DNA from: Chloroflexus sp.
GTDB taxonomy: Bacteria; Chloroflexota; Anaerolineae; Anaerolineales; Villigracilaceae
Assembly (NCBI GenBank): GCA_020723995.1
Contig: DYHT01000001.1
Location: 1 to 64,000 of the forward strand
Direction of reading: 5' to 3'
DNA: 64,000 nt
Below the pieces are notes generated by a model, which searched no databases, was not told the DNA's origin, and worked only from the letters and a program-made list of their open reading frames with translations. Below, in pieces: positions 7,424 to 31,612 of this stretch (positions are counted from its first letter, which is position 1; each line of letters begins with the position of its first letter). The translations under genes were made by a program, and so were the position numbers.

Positions 7424-8542
7424 ATGAAAAGCAAAATGTTCCTGTTGCTCAATATTCTAGTTCTGGCGACCCTGCTACTCGCAGCCTGCGGCCCCAAAAC
7501 CACCCCCGTCGCGACCGAACTGCCCGCGACTGCCGTCCCCACCGAACTCCCCGCGCCGGCCTGGACCACTCCCGAAGGCGCGCTGGTGGCTATGCCCGTT
7601 GATACCGCCCCGACTCTGGACGGCATGGCCGAAGACCTGTGGGCCAATGCCCAGGAAATCGTCATCCCCGTCAGCGGTGGCATTAACAACAGCGCCACCG
7701 AAGTTCACATCAAGGCCATTTACACGACCGATTCGGTGTACTTCCTCGTCACCTATGCCGACCCGACCGAGTCGCAACTGCGCTCGCCGTGGGTCAAGCA
7801 GGAAGACGGCAGCTGGAAGAAACTGTCCGACCCGAACGATAAGGGCGGCGACAACAACACCGTCTACGAAGACAAGATGTCCTTCATCTGGCCGATTGCC
7901 GACAGCATTCCCAATTTCTCGACCCAGGGTTGCTTCACCGCCTGCCATGCTGGCGAGAATCCCGACCTCAAGCCCTACGGTAACAAATACACTGCCGCTG
8001 AAGGTCAGATGGGCGACATCTGGCACTGGAAATCCGTCCGCAACCTGAACCAGGTGGACGATCAATACCTCGACGCGATCAAACTCGACATCACCAGCGC
8101 CGACTCGATCAAGCAGACCAAGAAAGCCGGCCGTCACAGCGACCCCAAGGACAGCGGCGGCTATGTGGATAACAAGACCGAAGACGGCACGATGCCCGCT
8201 TTCATGGCCCCCAACGGCGGCGACAAGAGCGGCCTGGGCGCCATCCTCGACTCCGAGAAGGTGCCCTTCGACGACGCTCTGTTCGTCCCTGGCAACATGC
8301 TGCCCAGCATCATCATCTCCGAAATCGTCGGCGACCGCGGCAATATTTCCGCCGGTTGGAAATACGAGAACGGCATGTGGACGCTCGAATTCGGACGCCT
8401 GTTGGACACCGCTTCGCAGTACGACGTAGAGTTCACCGACCTGACCGCTACGTACTACTTCGCCGTGGCTGTCTTCGACAATGCACAGGTGCGCCACGCT
8501 TTCCAGGCAGGCGCTACCCCATTCGTCTTCCAGCCTAGATAG
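7424..8542 (+). CDS. Lipoprotein with ethylbenzene-dehydrogenase-like heme-binding domain
   Basis: Lipobox LLLAACGP; DGMAEDLWANAQEIVIPV...VYFLVTYADPTES; CFTACH motif. Confidence 0.75.
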   Translation: MKSKMFLLLNILVLATLLLAACGPKTTPVATELPATAVPTELPAPAWTTPEGALVAMPVDTAPTLDGMAEDLWANAQEIVIPVSGGINNSATEVHIKAIYTTDSVYFLVTYADPTESQLRSPWVKQEDGSWKKLSDPNDKGGDNNTVYEDKMSFIWPIADSIPNFSTQGCFTACHAGENPDLKPYGNKYTAAEGQMGDIWHWKSVRNLNQVDDQYLDAIKLDITSADSIKQTKKAGRHSDPKDSGGYVDNKTEDGTMPAFMAPNGGDKSGLGAILDSEKVPFDDALFVPGNMLPSIIISEIVGDRGNISAGWKYENGMWTLEFGRLLDTASQYDVEFTDLTATYYFAVAVFDNAQVRHAFQAGATPFVFQPR

Positions 8543-8552
8543 TGTGTTGATA

Positions 8553-8584
8553 CTTGTACAGGCCGGAGAAACCTCCGGCCTGTA
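8553..8584 (+). terminator. Hairpin after the 7424 CDS
   Basis: ACAGGCCGGAgaaaccTCCGGCCTGT. Confidence 0.6.
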
Positions 8585-8705
8585 TCCCTGAAATCGCTTA
8601 TTAGTTTTTGCACACAATATCTATTCGGAATCGCGTACAGCGCTCTTGTGTTTCTTTTATCACAAACAATTATAATTCAGCCCGAAATATTGCACGAAGA
8701 ATGCA

Positions 8706-9874
8706 ATGCGTAATACCAGCCAAACCTTTCACCCGCGCCGCGCCTGTATCCTGATCGCTGCTTTTGGGGTTGGGATACTGATTCTGACGCTTGCCAGTCT
8801 GGCCCAATCGGCGGCTGCCTCCGCTGCACCGGTTGCCGCGCAGCAATTAGACGCCGCCGCCTGCCTGGCCTGTCACAGCAAGCCAGGTTTCACGCTCCCG
8901 CTGCCCAGCGGCGAGACGCTGCTATTGAGCATTGACAGTCAGGCCTTCGAAGCTTCCGTTCATGGCGCACAGGCAGTCGGCTGTACCAGTTGCCATACCG
9001 ACATCACTGCATTCCCGCACCCGGCCCTCATAGCCGAGAATCTGCGGGATGTTGCTGTAAAAATGTACACAACCTGCCAGCAGTGCCACAGCGAGCAGTA
9101 CAACAAGACACTCGATAGCGTCCACCAGCGCGCCCTGGCAGCCGGCAACACCAACGCGGCCATCTGCACTGACTGCCACAATCCGCACACCCAGACGCGC
9201 ATCACTGACCCGGATACCGGCCAGATTTTGCCGGACGCCCGCCTGCATATTCCCACTACCTGCGCCCGCTGCCATAGCGCCATTTATGACCAGTATACGA
9301 CCAGCGTACACGGCGCGGCATTAACTGAGGAAAACAACCTGGACGTGCCCACCTGCATTGACTGCCACGGCGTGCATAGCATCGCTAATCCCACCACTAC
9401 AACCTTTCGCACGAACTCGCCGCTCATCTGCGCCAAGTGCCATACTGACCCGACCATCATGGATCAGTATGGCATCTCGACCAGGGTTGTGAACACATAC
9501 GTGGCAGATTTTCATGGCACGACCATCACGCTTTTTGAGAAGACCCACCCCGATCAGGCCACCAATAAACCGGTCTGTTTTGACTGCCACGGCGTGCATA
9601 ATATCCAGAAAGCGGATGATCCGATCTATGGCATTGCCATGAAGGAAAATCTGCTGGTGGCCTGCCAGCGCTGTCACCCGGATGCTAGGCCAATTTCCCG
9701 GATTCCTGGATGAGTCATTACATCCCCAGTACGGAAAAGTACCCGATTGTCTATTACGTCAATCTTTTCTACAAAATCTTTATTCCGGCCGTGCTCGGGC
9801 CGATGGTTCTCTTTGTCTTGAGCGATATTGCCCGGCGGCTGATCAACCGCCGCAAAGGAGCGGCTCACTCATGA
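8706..9874 (+). pseudogene. Nonaheme cytochrome c with C-terminal membrane anchor; apparent frameshift near 9686-9690 (track ORF 8706-9713)
   Basis: Nine CxxCH; anchor ANFPDSWMSHYIPSTEKYPIVYYVNLFYKIFIPAVLGPMVLFVLSDIARRLINRRKGAAHS* is in another frame and overlaps the next ATG (ATGA). Confidence 0.8.
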
Positions 9875-11034
9875 GCAAGAAATCCCGCAGTTATGTTCGT
9901 TTTCCACTGGCCCGCCGCATCGAGCATCTAACCATGCTGCTCTCTTTCAGCACGCTGGGGGTGACCGGCCTGGTACAGAAATACGCCGCTTCCGGTCTTT
10001 CCATTGCTATCGTCAACCTGGTTGGCGGCATTGAAAACCTGCGCGCCATCCATCATGTGGCCGCCATCGTCATGATGTTTGGCACAATGTACCACATCCT
10101 CCTGGCCGGTTATCACGTTTTTGTCAAGCGCAGCCGCCTTTCCATGCTGCCCGCCTTGCAGGATATCAAAGATGGCTGGCAGGCGCTCATGTACAATTTT
10201 GGCCTGGCCAAATCCTACCCACAGATGGGCCGCTACACCTTTGAAGAAAAATTGGAATACTGGGCTTTCGTCTGGGGCACGATTGTGATGGGCTTGACCG
10301 GTTTCATGATGTGGAATCCAGTCACGACTGCCCACATCCTACCCGGTGAGTTCATCCCGGCTGCCAAGGCCGCGCATGGCGGCGAAGCTCTGCTAGCTGT
10401 GCTGGCGATCATCGTCTGGCACATGTACGTAGTACATATCAGACGCTTTAACAAAAGTATATGGACGGGTAAATTCACCGAGGCAGAGATGCTTCATGAG
10501 CATCCATTAGAACTGGCCGACATCAAAGCCGGTATCGCCGAGCCGCGCCTGGACCCGAAAACGCTCCGTAAACGCCGGAAGGTTTACTACCCCGTCGCCG
10601 GTATCCTAACCGTGGTCATGTTGGTGGGCGTGAACAGCTTCGTCAGTGGCGAAAAGACGGCCATCACCACCGTCCTGCCCATCTCCAGCCCGGTGCCGAT
10701 CTACCTTCCGCAGACGCCCACCCCCTCTCCCACCGCTCAACCCACCCCAACCTCGGGCGCGGTCGTCCTGACCTGGGATGGCTCCCTCGGCCCGCTCTTC
10801 CAGACCAAATGCGGCGCCTGCCACGGCACGACGGTCAAGTTGGCCCAACTATCCTTCGCCACTTATGCTGATACACTCAAAGGCGGTCAAGATGGCGTGA
10901 TCATCCTGCCCGGCGAGGCGTCGGGCAGCTCGTTGATCCAAAAGCAGCAGGCGGGAGGCCATCCCGGCCAGTTCAGCGCCGAGGAGCTTGGGCTGGTCAG
11001 CCAATGGATCGCTGCCGGTGCGCCGGAAAAATAA
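9871..11034 (+). CDS. Membrane cytochrome b (formate dehydrogenase gamma / b561-like) fused to a C-terminal cytochrome c domain
   Basis: Multiple TM with His (HHVAAIVMMFGTMYHILLAGYH), C-terminal CGACHG; ATGA overlap with upstream gene. Confidence 0.82.
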   Translation: MSKKSRSYVRFPLARRIEHLTMLLSFSTLGVTGLVQKYAASGLSIAIVNLVGGIENLRAIHHVAAIVMMFGTMYHILLAGYHVFVKRSRLSMLPALQDIKDGWQALMYNFGLAKSYPQMGRYTFEEKLEYWAFVWGTIVMGLTGFMMWNPVTTAHILPGEFIPAAKAAHGGEALLAVLAIIVWHMYVVHIRRFNKSIWTGKFTEAEMLHEHPLELADIKAGIAEPRLDPKTLRKRRKVYYPVAGILTVVMLVGVNSFVSGEKTAITTVLPISSPVPIYLPQTPTPSPTAQPTPTSGAVVLTWDGSLGPLFQTKCGACHGTTVKLAQLSFATYADTLKGGQDGVIILPGEASGSSLIQKQQAGGHPGQFSAEELGLVSQWIAAGAPEK

Positions 11035-11053
11035 ATTGTTGGAGGTGTATGTG

Positions 11054-12751
11054 ATGTTCAAACGAATCAAAGGAGGGCTGAAGCGATTCTTTTTCCCCCC
11101 AGCCGGTTCTCCACGCTGGCTCATGATCCTGCCTTACGCCATTCTGGGTGTGCTCACTCTCTTGCTGCTGGTCGGCGGCGCATACGGCTGGGACTACACC
11201 AACTCGCCCGCTTTTTGCGGTACGACCTGCCACACCATGCCGCCCGAATATGCCGCCTACGAGATCTCGCCGCACGCCCGCGTGGCCTGCGTGGAATGTC
11301 ACATCGGGCGCGAGTTCATCGGCAACCAGATCTTCCGCAAAGCGGGCGATATCGGGCACATCATCGCCACCACGTTCCGCACTTACGACTACCCGATCAT
11401 AGCCGGTAACATGCGCCCTGCTCGTGAGACTTGCGAAAAGTGCCATACACCCGAAAAGTTCTCGGATGACAGCCTGAGAGTGATCACGCACTTCCAGGAC
11501 GATCAGAAAAACACGCCTTCGGACCTCTACCTGATCCTGAAAACCGGAGGCGGCAGCAAACGTGAAGGTCTCGGGCGTGGTATTCACTGGCACATTGTCA
11601 ACCAGGTACTTTATTACGCCACCGACGAATTGGAACAGGATATTCCTTATATCCGCGTTTATAACGATGACGGCAGCACCCAGGAATACGTTGATGTGGA
11701 ATCCGGCTTCGACGCCTCCACCATCAACGACAGCCAGCTCCGTGAAATGGATTGCATCACCTGCCATAACCGGGTCACGCACCGCGTCTACACCCCCCAA
11801 GAGTCTATGGACAGACTGCTCTCACGCGGCAGCATTGATGTAACCATCCCTGAAATTCATCGCAGGGGCATGGAAGTGCTCAGCGCGACTTACGTTTCAC
11901 AAGAAGAAGCGCTTCAGGGCATTGCCGGGCTGGACAGCTACTACAACACCAACTATCCAGAGTTTTACCGCCAAAACAAGGATAAGGTTACTGCCGCCAT
12001 CCAGTTGATCCAGCAGGTTTATTCAGAGTCCGTTTTCATAGACCAGAAAGTGGACTGGAACACACATCCCAACAACCTGGGCCATATTGATGCGCCCGGT
12101 TGTTTCCGCTGCCACGACGGTAAACACCTGAATGACAAACAGGAAGCCATCCGGTTGGAATGCAACCTGTGCCATGCCATTCCGGTAGTTGCAACCGCGC
12201 AGGATTTTGTGACCAAAATCGAGATCAGCCGCGGACTGGAGCCGCAATCCCATCTGAACCCGAACTGGATCACCCTGCACCGCAATGTTTTTGATGCCAT
12301 CTGTTCCAATTGCCACACGACTGCGAATGCTGGCGGCACAACCAACACCTCGTTCTGCTCGAACAGCGCCTGCCACGGAACGGTCTTCACCTTCGCCGGG
12401 TTCGACGCGCCCAAGCTGCGCGAGATCCTCCAGGCGCAATTGCCCACCCCCGCGCCTGCGCCGACAGCCGGCCCCGTGGTCGGCGCGCCGACCTATGCGG
12501 CCAACATCCAGGCGGTCTTCAACACACGCTGCGTTGCCTGCCACAATGCGACGACGGCCTCGGCTGGTCTTGACCTGAGCACCTACGCCGGAGTCACGAA
12601 AGGCGGCCAGGACGGCGCGGTCGTCCTGCCTGGGGATTCGGCCAACAGCCTGCTCGTAAAAATCCAGAGCAGCCAGCATTTTGCCAACCTGACGCCGGAG
12701 GAACTGGAACTCGTCAGGCAATGGATTGACGCAGGCGCATTAGAAAAGTAA
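11054..12751 (+). CDS. NapC/NirT-like multiheme cytochrome c with C-terminal monoheme domain
   Basis: N-terminal TM, CGTTCHTMPPEYAAYEISPHARVACVECHIGREF; eight CxxCH plus one CSNSACH; GGAGG before ATG. Confidence 0.85.
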   Translation: MFKRIKGGLKRFFFPPAGSPRWLMILPYAILGVLTLLLLVGGAYGWDYTNSPAFCGTTCHTMPPEYAAYEISPHARVACVECHIGREFIGNQIFRKAGDIGHIIATTFRTYDYPIIAGNMRPARETCEKCHTPEKFSDDSLRVITHFQDDQKNTPSDLYLILKTGGGSKREGLGRGIHWHIVNQVLYYATDELEQDIPYIRVYNDDGSTQEYVDVESGFDASTINDSQLREMDCITCHNRVTHRVYTPQESMDRLLSRGSIDVTIPEIHRRGMEVLSATYVSQEEALQGIAGLDSYYNTNYPEFYRQNKDKVTAAIQLIQQVYSESVFIDQKVDWNTHPNNLGHIDAPGCFRCHDGKHLNDKQEAIRLECNLCHAIPVVATAQDFVTKIEISRGLEPQSHLNPNWITLHRNVFDAICSNCHTTANAGGTTNTSFCSNSACHGTVFTFAGFDAPKLREILQAQLPTPAPAPTAGPVVGAPTYAANIQAVFNTRCVACHNATTASAGLDLSTYAGVTKGGQDGAVVLPGDSANSLLVKIQSSQHFANLTPEELELVRQWIDAGALEK

Positions 12752-18889: not shown

Positions 18890-20134
18890 CTATGCTGGAG
18901 CAGGCTTCTTTGCTTCAACTTTCCAATTCTCGTGTTCCTCGACCGTCAAACTGTGATCCACCACTTTCAAATAACGCACCCCCAACGAGAAAGCCAACAG
19001 TCCGTAGCCGACCACGCCAGCGCCGCTGAGCACCTCGATCAACGAGGGGAAATAGTGTGCATATCCAACGATCGGTTCCCCAGGCAGGTACGAGAGCACG
19101 ATCATCAAGCCGGAGAGATTGGTGTCCCAACGATAAGCCACCACGCCGCCCACCACCAGGGCCAAGGCAACCATGCGCCACAGTTGACTCATTCGGGTGG
19201 GGCGATATAACAGCAGAAGCATTGGCGTGACGATGCCGAGCAGTATTTCGCCGACCCAGAAGTTGAAGGACAGCGGCCCAGCGGTCAGCAGGCGCAGGCC
19301 CTCGGTGCGGCCCGGCTGGTAAGTATAGGTCATTGACAAGGTGTCCCAGAAGCGGAAGTAGAGATAAAGCACCAGCGTCCAGCCGATGAAGTACGCGATG
19401 CGCTCCAGCAGGCTGTCATCCACGCTGGCGCGCCGGGTCAGCCGCGCCGAGAGCATGGAGGCGAACACGGTCAGCGCCATGCCGCCAGCAATGGCTAAGA
19501 TGATGAACAACACCGAGAGGTCAGGCCGGTACCAGTATGGGCGTGCTTTAAGCACACCGTATACCGCACCCAGCGAGGACTGGTGCAGCATCGAAAGCCC
19601 TAGACCGGCCACTGCCAGGTAAGGCGCGTAGTGATGCACGTGCGACATCTTCCCGGCCAGTTTCGGCCAGCGCTTCTTCAGCCACTCGAATTGAGCGAAG
19701 ATCGGCATACATTCCAGTATCAGCACCGTCAGGTAGAGTGTGATACACATGGTCACTTCCCAGAGCAAAGAGTGCTTGTTCCAATAAACGACTGCGTGCC
19801 AGAAACGGTCGGGGCGGCCAATATCCAGCAAGAGAGTCAGAAGAGCCATTGTGTAGCCGATCAGACCGATGAAAGTGGCCGTGCGCGCCACCGGCTGGTA
19901 GTGCTTCAATCCCAACAGGTAAACCGCGGCGCACAGCGAGAAAGCCCCGGCGCTCACGGCAATCGAGGACAGGTCAATCGTGATCCACAAACCCCATGGC
20001 ACCAAGTCGGTCAGGTTGGTGACCGACAAGCCCTTCCAGAAGACGATTATCCCTGCGCCGACGCCGGCCGCAATGACTGCCGCTAGGCCGATCGCCCAGG
20101 CCAGCCAGGGAGATAGTTTCAGATGAAGCTTCAT
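18890..20134 (-). CDS. nrfD: NrfD/PsrC-family polytopic membrane subunit (copy 1, full length)
   Basis: VPWGLWITIDLSSIAVSAGAFSLCAAVYLLG...LLLDIGRPDRFWH. Confidence 0.9.
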   Translation of the reverse strand: MKLHLKLSPWLAWAIGLAAVIAAGVGAGIIVFWKGLSVTNLTDLVPWGLWITIDLSSIAVSAGAFSLCAAVYLLGLKHYQPVARTATFIGLIGYTMALLTLLLDIGRPDRFWHAVVYWNKHSLLWEVTMCITLYLTVLILECMPIFAQFEWLKKRWPKLAGKMSHVHHYAPYLAVAGLGLSMLHQSSLGAVYGVLKARPYWYRPDLSVLFIILAIAGGMALTVFASMLSARLTRRASVDDSLLERIAYFIGWTLVLYLYFRFWDTLSMTYTYQPGRTEGLRLLTAGPLSFNFWVGEILLGIVTPMLLLLYRPTRMSQLWRMVALALVVGGVVAYRWDTNLSGLMIVLSYLPGEPIVGYAHYFPSLIEVLSGAGVVGYGLLAFSLGVRYLKVVDHSLTVEEHENWKVEAKKPAPA

Positions 20135-20794: not shown

Positions 20795-22615
20795 TCAACG
20801 GTATCGCTCAGCCTGCATGTTGTAAAGCCGGGCATAGGTTCCCCCAAGTGAAAGAAGTTTGTCGTGTGAGCCATATTCTGTTATGTGCCCATCCTCGAGC
20901 ACGGCGACCACATCGGCCATGCGCACCGTGCTAAAACGGTGAGAGATGAGCAGGCCTGTCCGCCCCTTTACCAACTCGATAAAACGGCTGTAGATATCGT
21001 ATTCCGCCTGAGCATCCAGGGCAGCAGTAGGCTCATCCAGAATGAGCAGGTCGGCGTCACGCATGAACATGCGCGCGATGGCAATTTTCTGCCATTCTCC
21101 GCCAGAAAGATCCACCCCAGCACCATTATCGGCGAACATACAGCTGAGCATGGTTTGATAGCCCTGAGGCAGATTCTCGATAGTATGATGCACACCTGCT
21201 TTTTGAGCCGCCTGCCGAACGCGGGCAATATCAGCGATACGTTCAACATCTCCAATTCCGATATTCTCCTGAGCCGTAAAGTCATAGCACATGAAGTCCT
21301 GAAAAATCACGCCCATGCGGTGGCGTAAATCCTCAGGGGCGAACTCGCGAATGTCAATGCCGTCCCACAGGATTTGTCCCTCCGTAGGATCGTACAGGCG
21401 AGTCAACAGTTTCACCAGGGTAGTCTTGCCGGCGCCGTTCAAGCCGACCAGGGCCAGGCATTTGCCCGCCGGAATAGAAAGGGTGACGTTTTGTAAGACC
21501 CACGGATGCCGTTCTGTATAGCGAAAAGAAACATTGCGTAGTTCAAAAACGGACACCTGTGCTGGAACCGGCCGGGCCGGGCTGACAACTTGCACCGGTT
21601 GCGGCAGGGCCATCAGACTATCGTAATGGGTGAAGAAAAGCGCGTGCTCGTTCAGATTGGAGAGCGCAAACACAATGCCATTCAATGCACCTTGAACGCT
21701 GCGGATGGCACTGGTGTATAGGGTGACATCGCCCAGGCTCAAGCGATTTGCAAAGGCCTGTATCACGACAACCACAAAGGCTGCACTAGAAACAAAAGTT
21801 GAAAGACTCTCCAAGAATAGTTCCCAACGTAGTTCACCGAGTTCCTGACGACATTGGGCTTGATGAATCTTTCGGTAGGTGCTTAGCAGACCGTTTAGAA
21901 AGTGATTGGCCAGACCAAACAGGCGAGATTCCTTAGCCGCCTCAGTGTCAGACAGGAGATGACCAAAGTAAAACGCACGTCGCTCATCTGGGCTAAGTTC
22001 AAAAGCCAGACCAAAGCGTTGGCGGCCGATTTTTAATTGCGTATAAAGCTGGGGCAGGGCTGCCAGGCTAACCAGACCCGCCAAAAGGGGGTTGAAGGCA
22101 ACCAGCGCCCCCAGGAAGCCCGTCAGGATGATAGCATTCTGAAATAACGTCGTGAGGGTGTTGAGACTCTGGATTGGTCCATACTGGGCACCCCGGCTGG
22201 CCAGCCGGAAGGTATCGTAAAACTCGGAGGTTTCGAAATAGGCTATTCCGACAAAACTGCTGATTTTTTTGTACACTGCTGATTGAATGGTGTCGGTCAA
22301 TTTACGCCCCAACTCAGCGTTGAGGTAACCACTGGCAGGGATAATCATCTGGCTTGCGATCAAGAGAACAGCCTGGGCAAGCAAAACAGGCAAGATATCC
22401 CTGGCAAGATTGAGGGTCGTACCTCCCCCCAACCCCTGGGCCAGCAAATCGAATAACACCTTGGTAAGCCAGGCAGTGGCTAAAGGTATGACCCCCTGTA
22501 ACGCCGTTAGCAAGATGAGGCCGATGAAAATAGCCGGTTGAGCCTGCCACGCTAGTCTGAGCATGGCAGTGACGGTCCTGGCGAATCGTGGAGTTTGTTG
22601 GAGCCAGTGCGGCAT
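20795..22615 (-). CDS. ABC exporter (TMD-NBD fusion), peptide/bacteriocin-type; no C39 peptidase domain seen
   Basis: Walker A GLNGAGKTTLVKLL, LSGGEWQKIAIARMFMRDADLLILDEPTAALD. Confidence 0.93.
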   Translation of the reverse strand: MPHWLQQTPRFARTVTAMLRLAWQAQPAIFIGLILLTALQGVIPLATAWLTKVLFDLLAQGLGGGTTLNLARDILPVLLAQAVLLIASQMIIPASGYLNAELGRKLTDTIQSAVYKKISSFVGIAYFETSEFYDTFRLASRGAQYGPIQSLNTLTTLFQNAIILTGFLGALVAFNPLLAGLVSLAALPQLYTQLKIGRQRFGLAFELSPDERRAFYFGHLLSDTEAAKESRLFGLANHFLNGLLSTYRKIHQAQCRQELGELRWELFLESLSTFVSSAAFVVVVIQAFANRLSLGDVTLYTSAIRSVQGALNGIVFALSNLNEHALFFTHYDSLMALPQPVQVVSPARPVPAQVSVFELRNVSFRYTERHPWVLQNVTLSIPAGKCLALVGLNGAGKTTLVKLLTRLYDPTEGQILWDGIDIREFAPEDLRHRMGVIFQDFMCYDFTAQENIGIGDVERIADIARVRQAAQKAGVHHTIENLPQGYQTMLSCMFADNGAGVDLSGGEWQKIAIARMFMRDADLLILDEPTAALDAQAEYDIYSRFIELVKGRTGLLISHRFSTVRMADVVAVLEDGHITEYGSHDKLLSLGGTYARLYNMQAERYR

Positions 22616-23067
22616 TACGATTTTCTTGATCCATCAACATCCGAAGTGGGATCAGCCGTAGCTGTTTGAGGCCGACGAAGAGCTATCTTCCGGATGAGTC
22701 TCATGAGGACAACACCACGGAGAGAATGAAATGGGAGTGGACCCACAGTCATTGAGTCAAGACCCCCGGAATCTCCCATCACGAAGCAGTGATCAGGAGG
22801 AACATGATACACCTGACTATCATGTTTTTCTTGTACCCGTCGTGAGTATACAACAGGAGGTTCGCGCGAGGGAGACGCCAACCCCGCCAGAGCGCATACC
22901 ATGAAGCCAACGTTTCTCCACACATCATAGGCTGACACCGGCCTCTGAGACGAACCAAAACAGTTGCAGGGCGTTTGAATCCCCCTGGCCAGCACGGCAG
23001 TCGAGAAACGCGACACTTCTTTGAAACGAGAAAACACTATTGATCCCCCGCTTCGCTGGCGAACCAT
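22615..23067 (-). pseudogene. Fused remnant: MauE-like fragment joined to an S26 signal peptidase C-terminal fragment
   Basis: VLARGIQTPCNCFGSSQRPVSAYDVWRNVGFMVCALAGL matches 27212-27784; VYHVPPDHCFVMGDSGGLDSMTVGPLP resembles 23037-23594. Confidence 0.8.
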
Positions 23068-23594
23068 CGCAGTTCCTCCGATGGTTCATTCACAGGCATG
23101 GCAGATCCGGCCCGCCGTCGCAGCCGAAACAGGACGAGACCCCGAATACTGTCCGCCGGAATTGAGCCAACCAGCCGCGAGTCCAGGCCGGGCGAATCCC
23201 CCTGGACAAAGTAATGCGCAGGCGGAACATGCCAGACTCGCGGTGAGTGGACATCATTGGTTAACATATTGGTCTGCAAGGCAAGCGGTATCGGCAGGCT
23301 GGCCTCAACGCGGTCGCCAGGCAAACCGGTGATGCGCTTGATGAATAACGCTTGCCGAAGAGATGTTGGAACGTGCGCCGGGTTATCTGCGAGAGACATT
23401 TGCCAGACGACGACCCACCCCCACCGCAGCCAGCGAGCCGGCCAATAGCGCAAGGCCAGCACCCGGTCGCCGTCGTTCAGCGCGGGGTACATACTTTGGC
23501 CGTCCACGCGGATAAGGAACAGCAACCCTCTTGCCAGCACGAGGAGTAAGGCCACAGCGACCAACGAGCCGAGGAGCAAGATAAGCCAACTCAT
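23037..23594 (-). CDS. Signal peptidase I-like (S26) peptidase
   Basis: VDGQSMYPALNDGDRVLALRY; KRITGLPGDRVE; VPPAHYFVQGDSPGLDSR. Confidence 0.9.
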   Translation of the reverse strand: MSWLILLLGSLVAVALLLVLARGLLFLIRVDGQSMYPALNDGDRVLALRYWPARWLRWGWVVVWQMSLADNPAHVPTSLRQALFIKRITGLPGDRVEASLPIPLALQTNMLTNDVHSPRVWHVPPAHYFVQGDSPGLDSRLVGSIPADSIRGLVLFRLRRRAGSAMPVNEPSEELRWFASEAGDQ

Positions 23595-23618
23595 ATCTCT
23601 AACCTTGAACTCCGGACA

Positions 23619-26201
23619 TCACTCATATCTCATCGCCTCTGCTGGTGCTACGCGCGCCGCCACACGCGCCGGGTACAGCGCAGCCAGCGCTCCTATCAGC
23701 CCCGGCACGCCCACCCCGACCAGGACCGCCAGAGCCAGCCCCGGCGCAACCGCACGGTACAGGTAAACGAAGGCCAGGCCACCCAACAGCGCACCCATTG
23801 TGCCCCCAGCCAGGCCCAGCAACACCCCTTCCAGCACAAACAGCCCCATCACCGCCCCCGTGCGCCAGCCCATCGCCTTGAGCACCCCAATCTCCCGCCG
23901 CCGCTCCAACACCCCCGCCAGCAGGTTGTTGGCCGTGGAAAGCGCCGCCAGCCCAAAGCCAATGCCCACGATGGCGTAGTGGAAACCTTGAATGCGCACC
24001 AGGAGGAACTCGCCCAAGAGCGTCCCGCTCAACATCCCCCGCTGCTCCAGTAGCACGGCGACCAGCAGCACTAGCAGCCCGGCAGAAAGCACTGCCGTCA
24101 GGCCCGCCAGCAGCGTCCGCCCCGCCCGGCGCATCAGCCCGCTCCAGGCATACCCCCACACTCCCAAGACCGCCCTGCTCCCCGTGCGCCGATAGTGCAA
24201 TCCCCCCTGCCGGAGGCCAACCAGCGGCGGCGTGCGGGCCGCCAACCAGGCCGGAAGCAAGCTGCCCAGGGCCGAGTCCCCGAGCATGGCCAGCGGCAAT
24301 CCCAGCAGCAGCCAATACGGTGGCCGCTGCCAACCCAAGAGCCACATGACCCCCAGCGCGCCCAGGCTCCCCGCCAACGTTACCGCTGTCCCAATGCTCA
24401 GAACCTGCCCGAGCACTTGTGCGAACACCGTGCGCGAGCGCCAGCCAAGCGCTTTCTGCAAGGCGATGAGACGGCAGCGCGCGACTACCTCTGCCCAGGT
24501 CAGGTCCAGGGCGAACAGCCCACCTGCCACCAGCAGGGTTCCCAGCAGCAGCCAGTTGCCGGCCTGGATGCCCTGCTTGTAGACCAGGCTCACTCCCTTC
24601 TGAATCCATTGCTCCTCGACGTAGCCAATGCCAGGCACGTGGACCAATATGCGGCGGGGTGAAGAGCCGACCATGATGTCCACATCTAAACCGGTTTGGC
24701 GTTGGATCTCGATAGCAATGGCTTCGATCTTGCGCTGGGCTTGTGGGGTGAGTTGGTCAATCCCGCCCACGCGGACACGAATGGCGCTGATAGCCGCCTC
24801 ACCGCGCAGGGCGCGAGCAGCCTCCAGGGTGGTCAGGAGGAGAGGTGGGGGTTGGATGTATCCGGCCAGATTAAGGGTGGGGCGCAACTCGCGGGGCGGG
24901 TCCACGGGTCGCCCTTGCTCGTCATAGCGCAGGATGGCAACCGGCGGGAGGTAGGTCTCCAGCGGCGCGCGGTTCACATCCGCAGGCCTGGACAAGCCTT
25001 CGATGTCAAAGACACCTTTGACATCCCACCAAAAGAGCGCGTTGAACTCGGCCTTCCCAGAGGCTCGGTATTGGGGCCAGCCGTCCTGACCGAGGTGGGG
25101 CTCTTCAATCGCCAGGACCAGCCCCTGGTATAGAAAGGGAGGGGTGCTCTCCCGGTACACCAGCGCGCTGGGATTGCTGAGCGCAGCCCATCCCATTAGG
25201 ATTATATTCCGGGAAGTGAGACTCTCGATCATTTGCTGATACAGCCGCCTGCTATCCACTTGTGTGACGGTCAGCGTCTCTATGGGTAGGCTGTCCAGAT
25301 AGTCGGTGCCGCCACGCGCTAGGATATCCTCCACTGTGGTGACGTCTGGAGGCAGAACCACGCGCTTGAGTTCGGCGTGATTGGTCACGCTTACGTAGTT
25401 GGTCGTGTTGACCAAAACGGATAAGTTAATCGCGGATTCAAGAACCTGGGGGGCTGGATTAAATAACTCAGGATCGATGATCTCGCCAATTTCGTATTGC
25501 GGGTTCAAGGATTCATCGCCTCGCAGGTAGCGCCCTTTTACTATCGTCCGGTTCAGCCCAATCAAGGCCGCTTCTTGAGCGGGATCGATCCCGGCTATTA
25601 ATAATGGGAAGAAAACACCGCCATTTATAGTGTCTTTAGGCAAATTCACATTAAGATTTTCAATCCTGCGAGACAACTTAAAATCATCAAACGTCAGTTC
25701 CTGGGGATTTCGGTCAAAGTAATAGTAATGACGCATCGGGAACCCAGGGACGGTGTAAGTGCGGGCCCCATCATCCAAAGTGGTCATCTCGTCCAAACGA
25801 TAGACTCCGGGGTAGGGCGGAAATCTCATCTCCTCATTGGGGGCTACCCCCGTTAGGTAGCCGAGCATGGCAATAGGCGCTGCTATTTCGACACCTGGGA
25901 TGGCTTTAATGGAGTTGTATTGCTCAAAGGTGATACCCCCCCAGATACCTGAGAGGTGGTTGGCCTCCACCAGGCCGTATTTCTCTTCGATCGGCGAGCG
26001 CGAACCTGCCGGCCGCACCAGGATGTCATAGGTGGTGCGCCAGTAGCGACTAAGCGCTCGGTCGGCTACAACGACCGTGGTTTGGGATGCAGCTGCAACC
26101 AGGAGCACCCCTGCGCCAATGAAAAACAGGCCCACCGCCAGCAAGAATTGGCGAGAGAACCCCTGACCTGGAAAAAGCTCAATCAACCGCATGATTCCCA
26201 A
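23619..26201 (-). CDS. FtsX/MacB-type ABC transporter permease
   Basis: LERRREIGVLKAMGWRTGAVMGLFVLEGVLLGLAGGTMGALLG; C-terminal VAARVAPAEAMRYE. Confidence 0.88.
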   Translation of the reverse strand: MGIMRLIELFPGQGFSRQFLLAVGLFFIGAGVLLVAAASQTTVVVADRALSRYWRTTYDILVRPAGSRSPIEEKYGLVEANHLSGIWGGITFEQYNSIKAIPGVEIAAPIAMLGYLTGVAPNEEMRFPPYPGVYRLDEMTTLDDGARTYTVPGFPMRHYYYFDRNPQELTFDDFKLSRRIENLNVNLPKDTINGGVFFPLLIAGIDPAQEAALIGLNRTIVKGRYLRGDESLNPQYEIGEIIDPELFNPAPQVLESAINLSVLVNTTNYVSVTNHAELKRVVLPPDVTTVEDILARGGTDYLDSLPIETLTVTQVDSRRLYQQMIESLTSRNIILMGWAALSNPSALVYRESTPPFLYQGLVLAIEEPHLGQDGWPQYRASGKAEFNALFWWDVKGVFDIEGLSRPADVNRAPLETYLPPVAILRYDEQGRPVDPPRELRPTLNLAGYIQPPPLLLTTLEAARALRGEAAISAIRVRVGGIDQLTPQAQRKIEAIAIEIQRQTGLDVDIMVGSSPRRILVHVPGIGYVEEQWIQKGVSLVYKQGIQAGNWLLLGTLLVAGGLFALDLTWAEVVARCRLIALQKALGWRSRTVFAQVLGQVLSIGTAVTLAGSLGALGVMWLLGWQRPPYWLLLGLPLAMLGDSALGSLLPAWLAARTPPLVGLRQGGLHYRRTGSRAVLGVWGYAWSGLMRRAGRTLLAGLTAVLSAGLLVLLVAVLLEQRGMLSGTLLGEFLLVRIQGFHYAIVGIGFGLAALSTANNLLAGVLERRREIGVLKAMGWRTGAVMGLFVLEGVLLGLAGGTMGALLGGLAFVYLYRAVAPGLALAVLVGVGVPGLIGALAALYPARVAARVAPAEAMRYE

Positions 26202-26214
26202 GGCCTACCCGAAG

Positions 26215-26251
26215 GCTCAAGGCAATGGCCCAGAGAGCCATTGCCTTGAGC
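26215..26251. promoter_or_regulatory. Perfect hairpin between precursor peptide gene and FtsX gene
   Basis: GCTCAAGGCAATGGC-ccagaga-GCCATTGCCTTGAGC, 15-bp stem, 7-nt loop, no T-tract. Confidence 0.75.
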
Positions 26252-26292
26252 ACAACTGAAAAGCGGCATGGATATTCTCCACACCCTCATCA

Positions 26293-26556
26293 TTAGCAGT
26301 ATACGCAATCGACCCATTCACAACAACCCATCTCTGAATTGGGGTAGCACCAGCAGTAGCCACGCTTCTTCTTCTCCCAACCGCAGGAAGTGCAGTTGTC
26401 ATAGAACGGACCGAAACATATGTAGCCTCCTCCCGTGCATCCTGCCCGCGCACGCACTGGTGAGCCAAGCACTGCTTCTGCCAGCAGAGATACTGCATCC
26501 TGTGTAGTCTCTTTGGCGACCGTGATTGCCCGAGAAATTGTTCTATGCTTCAACAT
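26293..26556 (-). CDS. Putative Cys-rich secreted peptide/bacteriocin precursor (87 aa, 10 Cys in the C-terminal 48 residues)
   Basis: MLKHRTISRAITVAKETTQDAVSLLAEAVLGSPVRARAG-CTGGGYICFGPFYDNCTSCGWEKKKRGYCWCYPNSEMGCCEWVDCVYC; AAAGGAGA RBS before ATG at 26556; track start at 26586 is TTG. Confidence 0.8.
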   Translation of the reverse strand: MLKHRTISRAITVAKETTQDAVSLLAEAVLGSPVRARAGCTGGGYICFGPFYDNCTSCGWEKKKRGYCWCYPNSEMGCCEWVDCVYC

Positions 26557-26636
26557 TTTAGGTTTCTCCTTTCTCTCAAGTTTCAAAAGTCAAATTTGTT
26601 TGGTTGAATTTCCAGTTTCTTCACTTCGTCATCCCA

Positions 26637-27181
26637 TCACCCCCTTCTACTTTGTGAGAGAACTTCCATTTTCTCCCCAAGATCCGACAAACTCACACCC
26701 ACTGCCCGTACCTTCCCTTCGGCGTCAACCAGACAAAAAGATGGTGTCGCCATAGCTTTGTAGTCGGCCAGGAAAGAGGTGCGATCTCGGGGCGCGACCA
26801 GGATGGGCAGTCTCAACTCAAGCTCGTCGGCAAAAGACTGTGTCTCCGCTTCGTCGGCGTCGCTCACCAGAACCAACTCAATTCCAAGCTGTTCAGCCTT
26901 GGGGTGTAATCCTTCGAGCCTGGGAAGCTCCTCACGACACGGTTTGCAGAGTGAGGCGACGTGAAGACGAATGCCACCGCCCGCCGGGCATAGCTCGAGA
27001 GCGTCACCGTCTCGCCTTGTAACGTTTGGGCCGTGAATGACGGGGCCGGCTGCCCGATTTTGAGAAAATCCATCCTGGGTAGACGGGCATTGAGCCGCCG
27101 TGACAGCCCAAGAGTGAGCAGGAGATTGAGCAATATCATAACCCAAAGCAGTACCGAGCTGATAATCAGGATCGTTTCCAT
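26637..27181 (-). pseudogene. MauD/TlpA-like membrane-anchored thioredoxin, apparent 2-nt insertion at the CxxC codons
   Basis: METILIISSVLLWVMILLN...GQPAPSFTAQTLQGETVTLSSYARRAVAFVFTSPH in one frame; CKPCREELPRLEGLHPKAEQLGIELVLVSDADE in another; removing TC from CACTCTGC restores SPHCKPC. Confidence 0.85.
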
Positions 27182-27211
27182 ATTTCACACATCTCCGTGG
27201 AGACAATTGCG

Positions 27212-27784
27212 TCAGGAAGTGGAGAACAGTTCCAAAAATTCTCCCAGGTGAGCCCACAGAACCACGAACACGACGGCCATCAGTCCCAATAAACCCAGCT
27301 CGACCATACTCAGATTCGCCCGCGTGCCAGGCAGTGCCGAGAGAGACACCAACCCCGCCAGAGCGCATACCATGAAGCCAACGTTTCTCCACATATCGTA
27401 TGCAGACACCGGCCTCTGAGACGAACCAAAACAGTTGCAGGGCGTTTGAATCCCCCTGGCCAGCACGGATAGAAGGGCGACACAAAAGATGAGCAAGAGA
27501 AAGATAGCCAGCCAGAACCCAATCGCCAAAAACCTGCCCCCAATGGGCAGTAGCGCAACCACCGCCAGCTCACCTGTCAGGAAGAGACAAGCGGAAAACC
27601 TGACAACTTGCCTGGGCAGGATTTGGAAATTCGCAATGGCGCGTTCAAACGCCGGAAAATTGCGGAGCTTGCCAATGCTCGACGCAGCAAATACTAAGCC
27701 AATGCCTATCCGTGAGAAAGCAAGAAAATATGGCAAAAGGGCAGCCAACATCGCCTCAACCCCCTTGGTCAACCAGCTTCCCAT
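27212..27784 (-). CDS. MauE/DoxX-like redox-associated membrane protein; likely start inside the ORF
   Basis: FSRIGIGLVFAASSIGKLRNFPAFERAIANFQILP...TPCNCFGSS; next to the MauD-like gene. Confidence 0.82.
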   Translation of the reverse strand: MGSWLTKGVEAMLAALLPYFLAFSRIGIGLVFAASSIGKLRNFPAFERAIANFQILPRQVVRFSACLFLTGELAVVALLPIGGRFLAIGFWLAIFLLLIFCVALLSVLARGIQTPCNCFGSSQRPVSAYDMWRNVGFMVCALAGLVSLSALPGTRANLSMVELGLLGLMAVVFVVLWAHLGEFLELFSTS

Positions 27785-28448
27785 CCCGAAGGTGAACCAC
27801 CCGGTCGGCCCGGGAAGCGATGGCCGCGTCGTGGGTCACTACCACGAGGGTGATACCCTGCTCGTTGTTTAGCTGGCGCAGCAGTTCCACGACTTCCTCT
27901 CCGCTTGTGGTATCCAGGTTGCCGGTCGGCTCGTCGGCCAGTATAAGCCGGGGATAATTGATCAGCGCGCGGGAGATTGCCACGCGTTGCTGCTCCCCAC
28001 CCGAAAGCTGGCCGGGCAGGTGGTGCAGCCGCGCCCCCAGGCTCATGCTTGCCAGCAACTCTCGCCCTCGTTTCATCAGGTCGAAAGGTAGTCCCCGGCG
28101 GTAAGGCAAGAGTGGCAGGATAACGTTCTCCAATGCGGTGAGCGTGGGTACCAGGTTGAAGAGCTGGAAGATAAAACCGATCCTGGCGCGCCGGAAGTCG
28201 GCCAGGGCGTCCCCCTTCAATGTGCCGACATCTGTCCCATCAACAACAACGCGGCCAGAGGTGGGACGATCCAATGTGCCAATCACATTGAGCAACGTGG
28301 ATTTGCCTGAGCCCGATGGGCCCTGGACAGCGATAAATTCCCCACGCTCAATTCCCAGAGAGACGCCATCCAGCGCGCGGATTAACGACCCATCAACATA
28401 AGTCTTGGTCAGGGCTTCTGTATGGACGATCAGCCGGTCATCTTCCAT
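27756..28448 (-). CDS. MacB/LolD-type ABC transporter ATP-binding protein
   Basis: Walker [48 protein letters not shown]; start MEDDRL with GGGAGG RBS. Confidence 0.92.
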
Positions 28449-29216: not shown

Positions 29217-29363
29217 CTAGGTCTATATTTCGGACGCAAGCTGATCGAAGCCCAAAAGGGAGAAATCGGCTTCATTTCCCCCATCTGGGATGATCTCAAA
29301 GCCCCCGGCAGCGAGTTCTACATCCTCATGCCCATCGCCCAAGCCCCGGAGGATAAGCTGTAA
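29217..29363 (+). pseudogene. C-terminal remnant of a sensor histidine kinase (HATPase G2 box to stop)
   Basis: LGLYFGRKLIEAQKGEIGFISPIWDDLKAPGSEFYILMPIAQAPEDKL*; TAATG coupling to the response regulator. Confidence 0.82.
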
Positions 29364-30046
29364 TGCCAGCCTTGTTGTTGATTGATGATGATAAAAGCCT
29401 GACGCAACTGTTGAGCGAATATCTGGCCAGACATGGCTACGGCGTTCGCAGTGTAGAAAACGGGCAGCGGGGCCTGCGTGCTATCTACGAGCGCCAGCCC
29501 GACATCATTCTACTGGACGTGACCATGCCCGAAAAAGACGGCTGGGAAACGCTCAAACGCATCCGCGAGGTAAGCGGTGTGCCGGTCATCATGCTGACGG
29601 CGAGCGGCGACGAAACCGATATTCTGCACGGTTTTTCGCTCGGCGCGGATGACTACATTACCAAGCCGTTTTCTTTTGCCCAGCTTGCGGCGTGCATCAA
29701 CGCTGTGCTGGCCCGCGCTGGCCAGGGAAGCGCTGCCGAGGGCAAACTCTCCGCGGCCGGGCTGGAAGTGGATTTGGGGTCGAAACGCGTCTGGCGCGAT
29801 GGCCAGCCGTTAGCGCTCACACCGACGGAATTCAAACTGCTGGTCACGCTCATGCGCCGCGCCGGGGAAGTCGTCTCGCCGGAGGAACTGGTCAAGGAAG
29901 TCTGGGGCTCGCAGTATGCCAGCGAAGTCGGTCACGTGCGCCGCTACATCTGGCATCTGCGCCAAAAAGTGGAACCTGACCCCGAAAATCCGCGCTTTAT
30001 CCACAATGACCGAGGATTCGGCTATCGTTTTCAATCTTCGGAGTAA
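29363..30046 (+). CDS. OmpR/PhoB-family response regulator
   Basis: LLIDDDKSLTQLL...DIILLDVTMPEKDGWE; winged-helix C-terminus RRYIWHLRQKVEPDPENPRFIHNDRGFGYRF. Confidence 0.93.
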   Translation: MPALLLIDDDKSLTQLLSEYLARHGYGVRSVENGQRGLRAIYERQPDIILLDVTMPEKDGWETLKRIREVSGVPVIMLTASGDETDILHGFSLGADDYITKPFSFAQLAACINAVLARAGQGSAAEGKLSAAGLEVDLGSKRVWRDGQPLALTPTEFKLLVTLMRRAGEVVSPEELVKEVWGSQYASEVGHVRRYIWHLRQKVEPDPENPRFIHNDRGFGYRFQSSE

Positions 30047-30229: not shown

Positions 30230-31612
30230 TTAAGTAAGATATGCTTCTGTCTCATGAACTTCCACCGCCCGATGATCCACCACTTTCAAGTAGCGCGCCC
30301 CCAGCGAAAAAGCCAGCAAGCCATAGGCAATGACACCCAACCCCGCCAACCACTCGACCAGCGAAGGAATGTAATGGGTATAAGCCACTGATGGTTCCCC
30401 AGGCAGATAGGATAGCACGATTATCAAGCCGGAAATATTGGTATCCCAGCGATAAGCCACCACACCGCCCACCACCAGGGCTAAGGCAACCATGCGCCAC
30501 AGTTGACTCATTCGGGTGGGGCGATATAACAGCAGAAGCATTGGCGTGACGATGCCGAGCAGTATTTCGCCGACCCAGAAGTTGAAGGACAGCGGCCCAG
30601 CGGTCAGCAGGCGCAGGCCCTCGGTGCGGCCCGGCTGGTAAGTATAGGTCATTGACAAGGTGTCCCAGAAGCGGAAGTAGAGATAAAGCACCAGCGTCCA
30701 GCCGATGAAGTACGCGATGCGCTCCAGCAGGCTGTCATCCACGCTGGCGCGCCGGGTCAGCCGCGCCGAGAGCATGGAGGCGAACACGGTCAGCGCTATG
30801 CCGCCTGCCAGACCCAGTAAACCGGCCAACCCGGCAAATCCAAACGGACTGACTGGAGAAGGCGACTCAGCAAGTGATTTTCCGATCGTTATTTCCGGCG
30901 CTGGCATTTCTGCTGCCGGAACAGCAGCCGTCTCAGTCGAGCTGTGCATTTGGTCGGCATGACAGGCGTTGCAGGTGGCCAGGCTGGCGTTGAAACTGTG
31001 GTCTGGCATGGTGTGTGTTTCATCTGAGCCATTCTCCTCAAGGTGACGCAAATGGCAATCCACGCACGAGACACTGGCCTGATGATGTTTGGAATATGGG
31101 AAATTCATCGAGACTTCACTGTGACAGTTGATGCACAGACCTGAAGGTCCCAATGCCTGTCCGTCAGCGATTACAATTGTCTTAAGCCCAGCCGAATGCG
31201 CGTCGTGACAGACCGTGCAGGACATGTTGCGCTGGTAATGCGCACTGATCTGCCATTCATCCCAGCCGAAGCGCGTATCGCTGTGGCAATGCCCGCACAG
31301 GTCGGGTGAGCGGTCAACCGGCACCGGGTTAGTGGCCGGATTGACAACATGCTCAGCAGGGATTGGATTATGACAGGCCTCGCAAGCCACCCCGTCTTTG
31401 CGCCAAGTGGCCGTGGCTGGATCGTAGCCGGTAACGTGGCAAACCAGGCAGGCGCCCGGTTTGCCCTGGCTTGCCCAAGACTGTTCAAATATCGGGTCAA
31501 CGGTGGCGCGTCCGTGCGCGCCCGCGGCCCAAGAATCCTGGAATTTCGGATGGCACATCAAGCATTCCGGTTGCTGTTGCTGGGCAGGCGCGAAGTTATC
31601 AGATTTCGGCTG
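30230..31612 (-). CDS. Chimeric octaheme cytochrome c :: C-terminal half of NrfD (copy 2)
   Basis: Eight CxxCH (CLMCH...CNACH), then IALTVFASMLSARLTRRASVDDSLLERIAYF... matching NrfD copy 1; track ATG at 31561 lies inside the first heme motif. Confidence 0.75.
   Translation of the reverse strand, partial: QPKSDNFAPAQQQQPECLMCHPKFQDSWAAGAHGRATVDPIFEQSWASQGKPGACLVCHVTGYDPATATWRKDGVACEACHNPIPAEHVVNPATNPVPVDRSPDLCGHCHSDTRFGWDEWQISAHYQRNMSCTVCHDAHSAGLKTIVIADGQALGPSGLCINCHSEVSMNFPYSKHHQASVSCVDCHLRHLEENGSDETHTMPDHSFNASLATCNACHADQMHSSTETAAVPAAEMPAPEITIGKSLAESPSPVSPFGFAGLAGLLGLAGGIALTVFASMLSARLTRRASVDDSLLERIAYFIGWTLVLYLYFRFWDTLSMTYTYQPGRTEGLRLLTAGPLSFNFWVGEILLGIVTPMLLLLYRPTRMSQLWRMVALALVVGGVVAYRWDTNISGLIIVLSYLPGEPSVAYTHYIPSLVEWLAGLGVIAYGLLAFSLGARYLKVVDHRAVEVHETEAYLT

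Follow-up and report, generated by a model that had tools for sequence, protein, structure and literature searches.

What a MauE homolog and a MauD-like protein are doing beside a short cysteine-rich open reading frame (ORF) is the question raised by a locus in the 64,000-nucleotide stretch of Chloroflexus sp. DNA analyzed here (the window). The seven genes of the cluster are all co-directional on the minus strand, between positions 28448 and 20795. The seven functions attributed to them in the initial annotation were all recovered close to where they had been placed, with HMM support for MauE, S26, FtsX, the ABC exporter, and the LolD/MacB-type ATPase, and the 87-aa ORF with 10 Cys described there is present between MauE/MauD and a large permease. 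The picture of an intact cluster holds for the seven functions but has to be amended, since a 2-nt insertion in the MauD gene and a chimeric MauE/S26 remnant had been missed. We consider it likely that the locus specifies a secreted, disulfide-crosslinked peptide, most probably a bacteriocin, along with its own folding, cleavage, export, and self-protection genes.

The putative precursor peptide (26293..26556, minus strand) is composed of a leader spanning residues ~1-38 and ending in ARA, and a core of ~49 residues (~39-87) carrying 10 Cys. No Pfam or NCBIfam family was found to match this 87-aa ORF. The AF2 model of the precursor (pLDDT 67, about 57-68 in the core) shows a low-confidence three-stranded core for which no fold relative was found in the PDB, and searches of the PDB sequences with precursor profiles yielded chance matches only. 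Searches of viral contigs and genome contigs with the single precursor sequence gave no matches; the homologs were reached via MauE and permease searches. Four weak precursor matches (L003, L004, L007, and L009) were rejected on inspection as apparent out-of-frame noise. A suspected relation to fulvocin C was also abandoned, as no NCBIfam match and nothing useful in the literature were found.

The MauE homolog (27212..27784, minus strand), a membrane thiol-redox protein with a CxCF motif, matches PF07291 with a score of 94 bits (cutoff 27). The pattern CxCF(G/S) is kept in the Chloroflexota homologs and reads CRCFG in most of the actinobacterial ones. The MauD-like protein (26637..27181, minus strand) belongs to the AhpC/TSA thioredoxin fold and scores 39.7 bits against TIGR02661, which is below the cutoff of 188.6 and places it outside this equivalog. 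Its gene is frameshifted: 2 nt are inserted at ~26953, immediately ahead of the codons for the CxxC motif, which is thus out of the reading frame. The two inserted bases were present in none of the five Chloroflexota homologs with which it was aligned (L010, L090, L091, L094, and L096), all of which are intact; the motif region reads, for example, SPHCQPCREE in an intact Chloroflexota protein, and all other non-degraded MauD-like proteins that were checked retain the CxxC. Because of this frameshift, the window copy of the cassette may not be fully functional.

MauE and MauD-like proteins also adjoin a small Cys-rich protein in the mau cluster, and the peptide might, on this analogy, be a cofactor subunit resembling that of methylamine dehydrogenase (MADH), served by MauD and MauE as it is there. 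The two homologs and the small Cys-rich protein are what speaks for this explanation, to which we give hardly any credence: as the initial annotation had pointed out, MADH subunits are absent from the cluster, which has no catalytic large subunit, and the precursor has no match to PF02975. The MauD match, well under the TIGR02661 cutoff, is another difference from the mau cluster. Homology between the precursor and the MADH light chain was not supported. A genome search for PF02975 and PF06433 returned no match, and the control genomes were equally silent.

The S26 signal-peptidase-like protease (23037..23594, minus strand; Peptidase_S26) matches TIGR02227 with 64 bits (cutoff 47), and the motifs containing the Ser (GQSMYP) and the Lys (FIKRITGLPGD) were seen by eye. 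Between this gene and the exporter lies the chimeric remnant (22615..23067, minus strand), in which a C-terminal fragment of MauE (PF07291, 29.1 bits; 87% amino acid identity) is combined with the diverged C-terminus of a second S26 protein (19.1 bits), without the catalytic region. The ABC exporter (20795..22615, minus strand) is a fused TMD-NBD protein with MsbA/HlyB-type HMM matches, and no C39 peptidase domain was present among these matches, as initially annotated; the exporters of two related loci (L090 and L094) are 65-68% identical to it. A partial duplication of an NrfD-like membrane protein was also observed in the window (18890-20134 and 30230-31561, minus strand), where the C-terminal half of the second copy is joined in frame to a multiheme-cytochrome-like N-terminus. 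This duplication and the MauE/S26 chimera suggest that recombination, or misassembly, has occurred within the contig. The source assembly amounts to 2.1 Mb in 82 contigs and is 85% complete.

The window copy could accordingly be viewed as a decaying, non-functional remnant, which would be compatible with the preferred explanation of the family. The MauD frameshift at the CxxC, the chimera, and the broken copies encountered elsewhere (L033, L103, and the exporter of L096) point in this direction, but the other six genes are intact, as is the precursor, the MauD frame is open apart from this shift, and one indel might have arisen in assembly; we hold decay to be possible but rather doubtful. In the preferred explanation, the family is functional and the window copy may be a member of it that was damaged recently or mis-sequenced. 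The broken copy L033 (G234:C138, 1992-4564) is a degraded second cassette in which MauE is intact, MauD is truncated and disrupted just before the CxxC, and the precursor and the permease N-terminus have been lost. At the thresholds used, neither the precursor nor MauE nor the permease was found in any of the roughly 20 listed genomes of the same family, one of which is 94% complete and belongs to the same genus; the distribution of the cassette is therefore patchy.

The related loci were gathered by MauE searches, permease searches, and a GTDB scan with the permease profile. The search of the class with the window precursor yielded one true homolog, in genome G234 (L002/L010), where MauE, an intact MauD, a 74-aa peptide with 10 Cys, and the permease are found together. 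Among the Chloroflexota loci with a non-Sec leader, which we call type I, L090 (Anaerolineales MAG_12) carries all seven genes in the order of the window, its MauE being split over two frames, and L094 and L096 (Anaerolineae MAGs) carry near-complete sets, with a split exporter in L096. The order MauE-MauD-precursor-permease is shared by L010, which runs off the contig end, and L091, which has no S26 or exporter. The 87-aa ORF is not a chance one: wherever the precursor slot of a type I locus was readable, it is occupied by an ORF with eight or more Cys, and such ORFs also precede most of the related permeases (see below). The leaders have the form MLKEYLxEAxSLLxEAxLGxPxxAxA, and the motif LL.EA.LG.P..A.A is common to the window, L010, L090, L091, L094, and L096. 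The type I leaders show a mean identity of 65%, as compared with 38% in the cores (24% when Cys are disregarded), and this conserved leader, the variable core, and the clustered maturation and export genes are those expected of a RiPP precursor.

The second type of locus (L044, L073, L074, L076-L079, L086, L106, and L107) encodes a peptide with a Sec-like signal, adjacent to a CxxC-containing TlpA/MauD-like protein and a permease, with the ATPase in view in most cases; in L077, where the contig ends, the TlpA/MauD-like protein was not seen. None of the inspected type II loci has MauE, S26, or the exporter. In a tally made by hand, MauE was present in 5/6 type I and 0/10 type II loci (p = 0.001) and S26 in 4/5 type I and 0/7 type II informative loci (p = 0.01), these p-values being optimistic because the counts include related sequences. 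MauE, S26, and the exporter thus go with the non-Sec leader, and MauE occurs only in type I and in the actinobacterial form described below. The core of the window precursor aligns significantly with Sec-type cores (L073c, z = 8.0; L077, z = 5.6) and weakly with the type I cores, which indicates that a core family has been combined with both kinds of leader and that the export genes follow the leader. The initial reading of a Cys-rich secreted peptide accompanied by oxidoreductases, S26, and an exporter is upheld by the conserved gene order, the AxA leaders, and the even Cys numbers, but the pairing of MauD with MauE stands only in part: MauD is kept throughout and is the constant oxidoreductase, whereas MauE is absent beside Sec peptides with homologous cores and hence not essential for them.

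The number of Cys is even in 28 of the 29 cores, related sequences included, as predicted by paired disulfides; L212, an actinobacterial candidate outside these 29, has 5 Cys. The leader ends in AxA or VxA in all 29 cases, which is a description rather than an independent test, because these motifs were used to set the boundary by hand. The high density of Cys and the CxxC pairs could also be those of a secreted Cu- or Zn-binding peptide whose thiols are kept reduced by the oxidoreductases, and TlpA-type proteins can indeed be reductants. This possibility is a distinctly improbable one, as no conserved His/Cys metal motif was seen across the cores, the total number of Cys is even while their spacing shifts, and no metal genes were noticed in the inspected loci. 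In the mau system, moreover, MauE is thought to help disulfide formation, according to the decRiPPter study (PMC7794033).

The other genes common to both types of locus are those of the ATPase and the permease. The ATPase (27756..28448, minus strand) is of the LolD/MacB type found in type VII ABC transporters: it scores 230 bits against TIGR02211 LolD (cutoff 307.75), below threshold against MacB, and 191 bits against TIGR03608 bacteriocin ABC, below the cutoff of 255. The permease (23619..26192, minus strand; PF02687) has 857 aa and a large extracytoplasmic domain, and its AF2 model resembles LolCDE, MacB, and YbbAP in the PDB. An FtsX-fold permease with a separate LolD-like ATPase is the make-up of a type VII ABC transporter, and the ATPase adjoins the permease in the homologous loci too. 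A Cys-rich ORF (50-130 aa, at least eight Cys, no more than 700 bp upstream, same strand) precedes 17 of the 27 related permeases with enough upstream sequence, vs. 4/177 control genes from the same loci (Fisher 1.6e-14, an optimistic value given the related sequences). One of the four control positives is itself a precursor, and in the case of the truncated L073 permease, one of the 17, the reported ORF is an overlapping one and not the precursor, which is there too. The remaining 10/27 permeases have no such ORF upstream, a point against the preferred explanation. For most of the Micromonospora and Jiangella relatives of the permease among L110-L137, the filters used revealed no Cys-rich partner. 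No Cys-rich neighbor was found, either, for the permease/ATPase pairs in L081-L084, L075, and L092; these pairs possibly provide orphan immunity or act on another substrate.

The substrates of type VII transporters are located at the membrane or outside it. Since the Sec-type loci keep the ATPase and permease without a dedicated exporter, export is unlikely to be the function of this pair, and its persistence where Sec exports the peptide strengthens the immunity reading. Type VII permeases can also be sensors, and a two-component response regulator is encoded upstream of the cluster (29363-30046): the disulfide-rich peptide might be a signal, sensed by the ATPase and the permease with its large extracytoplasmic domain, as peptides are by BceAB-type pairs. 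We find this unlikely: the response regulator, which is divergent, was not observed next to the homologous type I clusters that were inspected, and the highly variable cores are more typical of toxins. The two permeases of L073, each with its own peptide ahead, and the permeases without a peptide fit immunity. The ATPase and permease probably protect the producer.

The cassette is not restricted to Chloroflexota. In Asanoa hainanensis, a cultured strain (L116), the precursor, MauD, ABC exporter, S26, MauE, permease, and ATPase are all present. In this strain (CGMCC 4.5593), the core has 45 aa and 6 Cys, and cleavage is expected after ASA. Of the 201 Micromonosporaceae genomes sampled, 80 gave a MauE match, and of the best 20 neighborhoods 15 include MauD and the exporter and 14 include S26; at least 10 of these 20 encode a Cys-rich peptide with the leader DRLLxxxVPKAxAxA, and there are two further candidates. 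L203 also carries the permease. The initial annotation had proposed looking for the co-occurrence of the precursor with MauE, MauD, and S26 in other genomes, and both the order and the composition proved to be conserved across genomes and phyla. In a Nocardioides MAG (L125), MauE, MauD, the ATPase, and the permease accompany a Cys-rich peptide of the twin-arginine type. Twin-arginine-type signals, two of them with sub-threshold or weak TAT matches, were also observed in 12-15-Cys peptides located beside MauE or MauE/MauD in other loci of the class, L037, L040, L041, and L042 (G175, G011, G034, and G138), as a further export route. An ATP-grasp gene lies beside MauE and MauD in L035 (G083, 7957-11478) and L221 (6595-10772). 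That of L035, the one tested, scores on RiPP peptide-maturase families (best TIGR04187, 263 bits of the 350 cutoff). A 75-aa ORF with 8 Cys was also noted in L035, and the combination with MauE, MauD, and ATP-grasp suggests a graspetide-like variant with disulfides.

The genes of the cassette appear to provide for the synthesis of a small disulfide-bonded peptide, probably antibacterial, and for its oxidative folding, trimming, and secretion. The precursor, with its amphipathic leader ending in AxA and its ~49-residue, 10-Cys core, would be carried across the membrane by the dedicated ABC exporter and cleaved after the AxA by the S26 peptidase of the cluster, these two proteins standing in for the Sec route in the case of non-Sec leaders. 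MauD, via its CxxC, would form the disulfides outside, and membrane-bound MauE, with its CxC, probably recycles MauD, in the presumed direction of electron flow. The ATPase and the type VII permease would act on the extracytoplasmic peptide, most likely for self-protection.

Several known systems share features with this one. Secreted bacteriocins of the lactococcin 972 type are also accompanied by a MacB/LolD-like ATPase and a permease, but lactococcin 972 is not known to be Cys-rich, and the window ATPase is under the TIGR03608 cutoff and the precursor without a Pfam match. Sublancin depends on BdbA/B, a glycosyltransferase, and an exporter of the C39 kind; the window cluster, with a separate S26 and no C39, is not a C39-exporter bacteriocin cluster of the sublancin/glycocin kind. 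TMcin has one disulfide, a DsbA-type oxidoreductase, TmcD, and an S2P protease (PMC13252029). Like the window cluster, those of TMcin and the sublancin type comprise a CxxC oxidoreductase of their own together with a leader protease and an ABC exporter, whereas 4-7 potential disulfides, MauD/MauE, and S26 are found here. The closest likeness is with the Streptomyces candidate RiPP families of decRiPPter, which combine MauE, and in one family MauD, with precursors having at least eight Cys and no other mau genes, and are characterized by these features only in the part of that study devoted to them (PMC7794033). The window has the same combination outside a mau cluster, and differs from that description in its Chloroflexota host, conserved leader, S26, ABC exporter, type VII permease, and Sec-leader sister form. 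The cluster was initially presented as undescribed, which is right only in part: the literature searched contained nothing on the Chloroflexota cassette, its leader families, or the permease link, but Streptomyces MauE(/MauD) candidates had been flagged, as the same account indicates.

There may be an even chance that these loci form a single class of disulfide-only peptides across Chloroflexota and Actinomycetota, in which hypervariable even-Cys cores are swapped between Sec and non-Sec export routes, every peptide being paired with an immunity transporter of the type VII ABC kind, and in which the non-Sec leader is accompanied by an S26, an ABC exporter, and a MauE of its own. If so, a large number of stable, disulfide-rich bacterial peptides, provided with their own folding genes, would have escaped annotation so far, a single core family would use two secretion routes, and MauE/MauD would have a general role beyond methylamine dehydrogenase. 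The cassette is held by most of the best 20 Micromonosporaceae MauE neighborhoods, and the role of MauE/MauD is testable in a cultured strain, Asanoa hainanensis.
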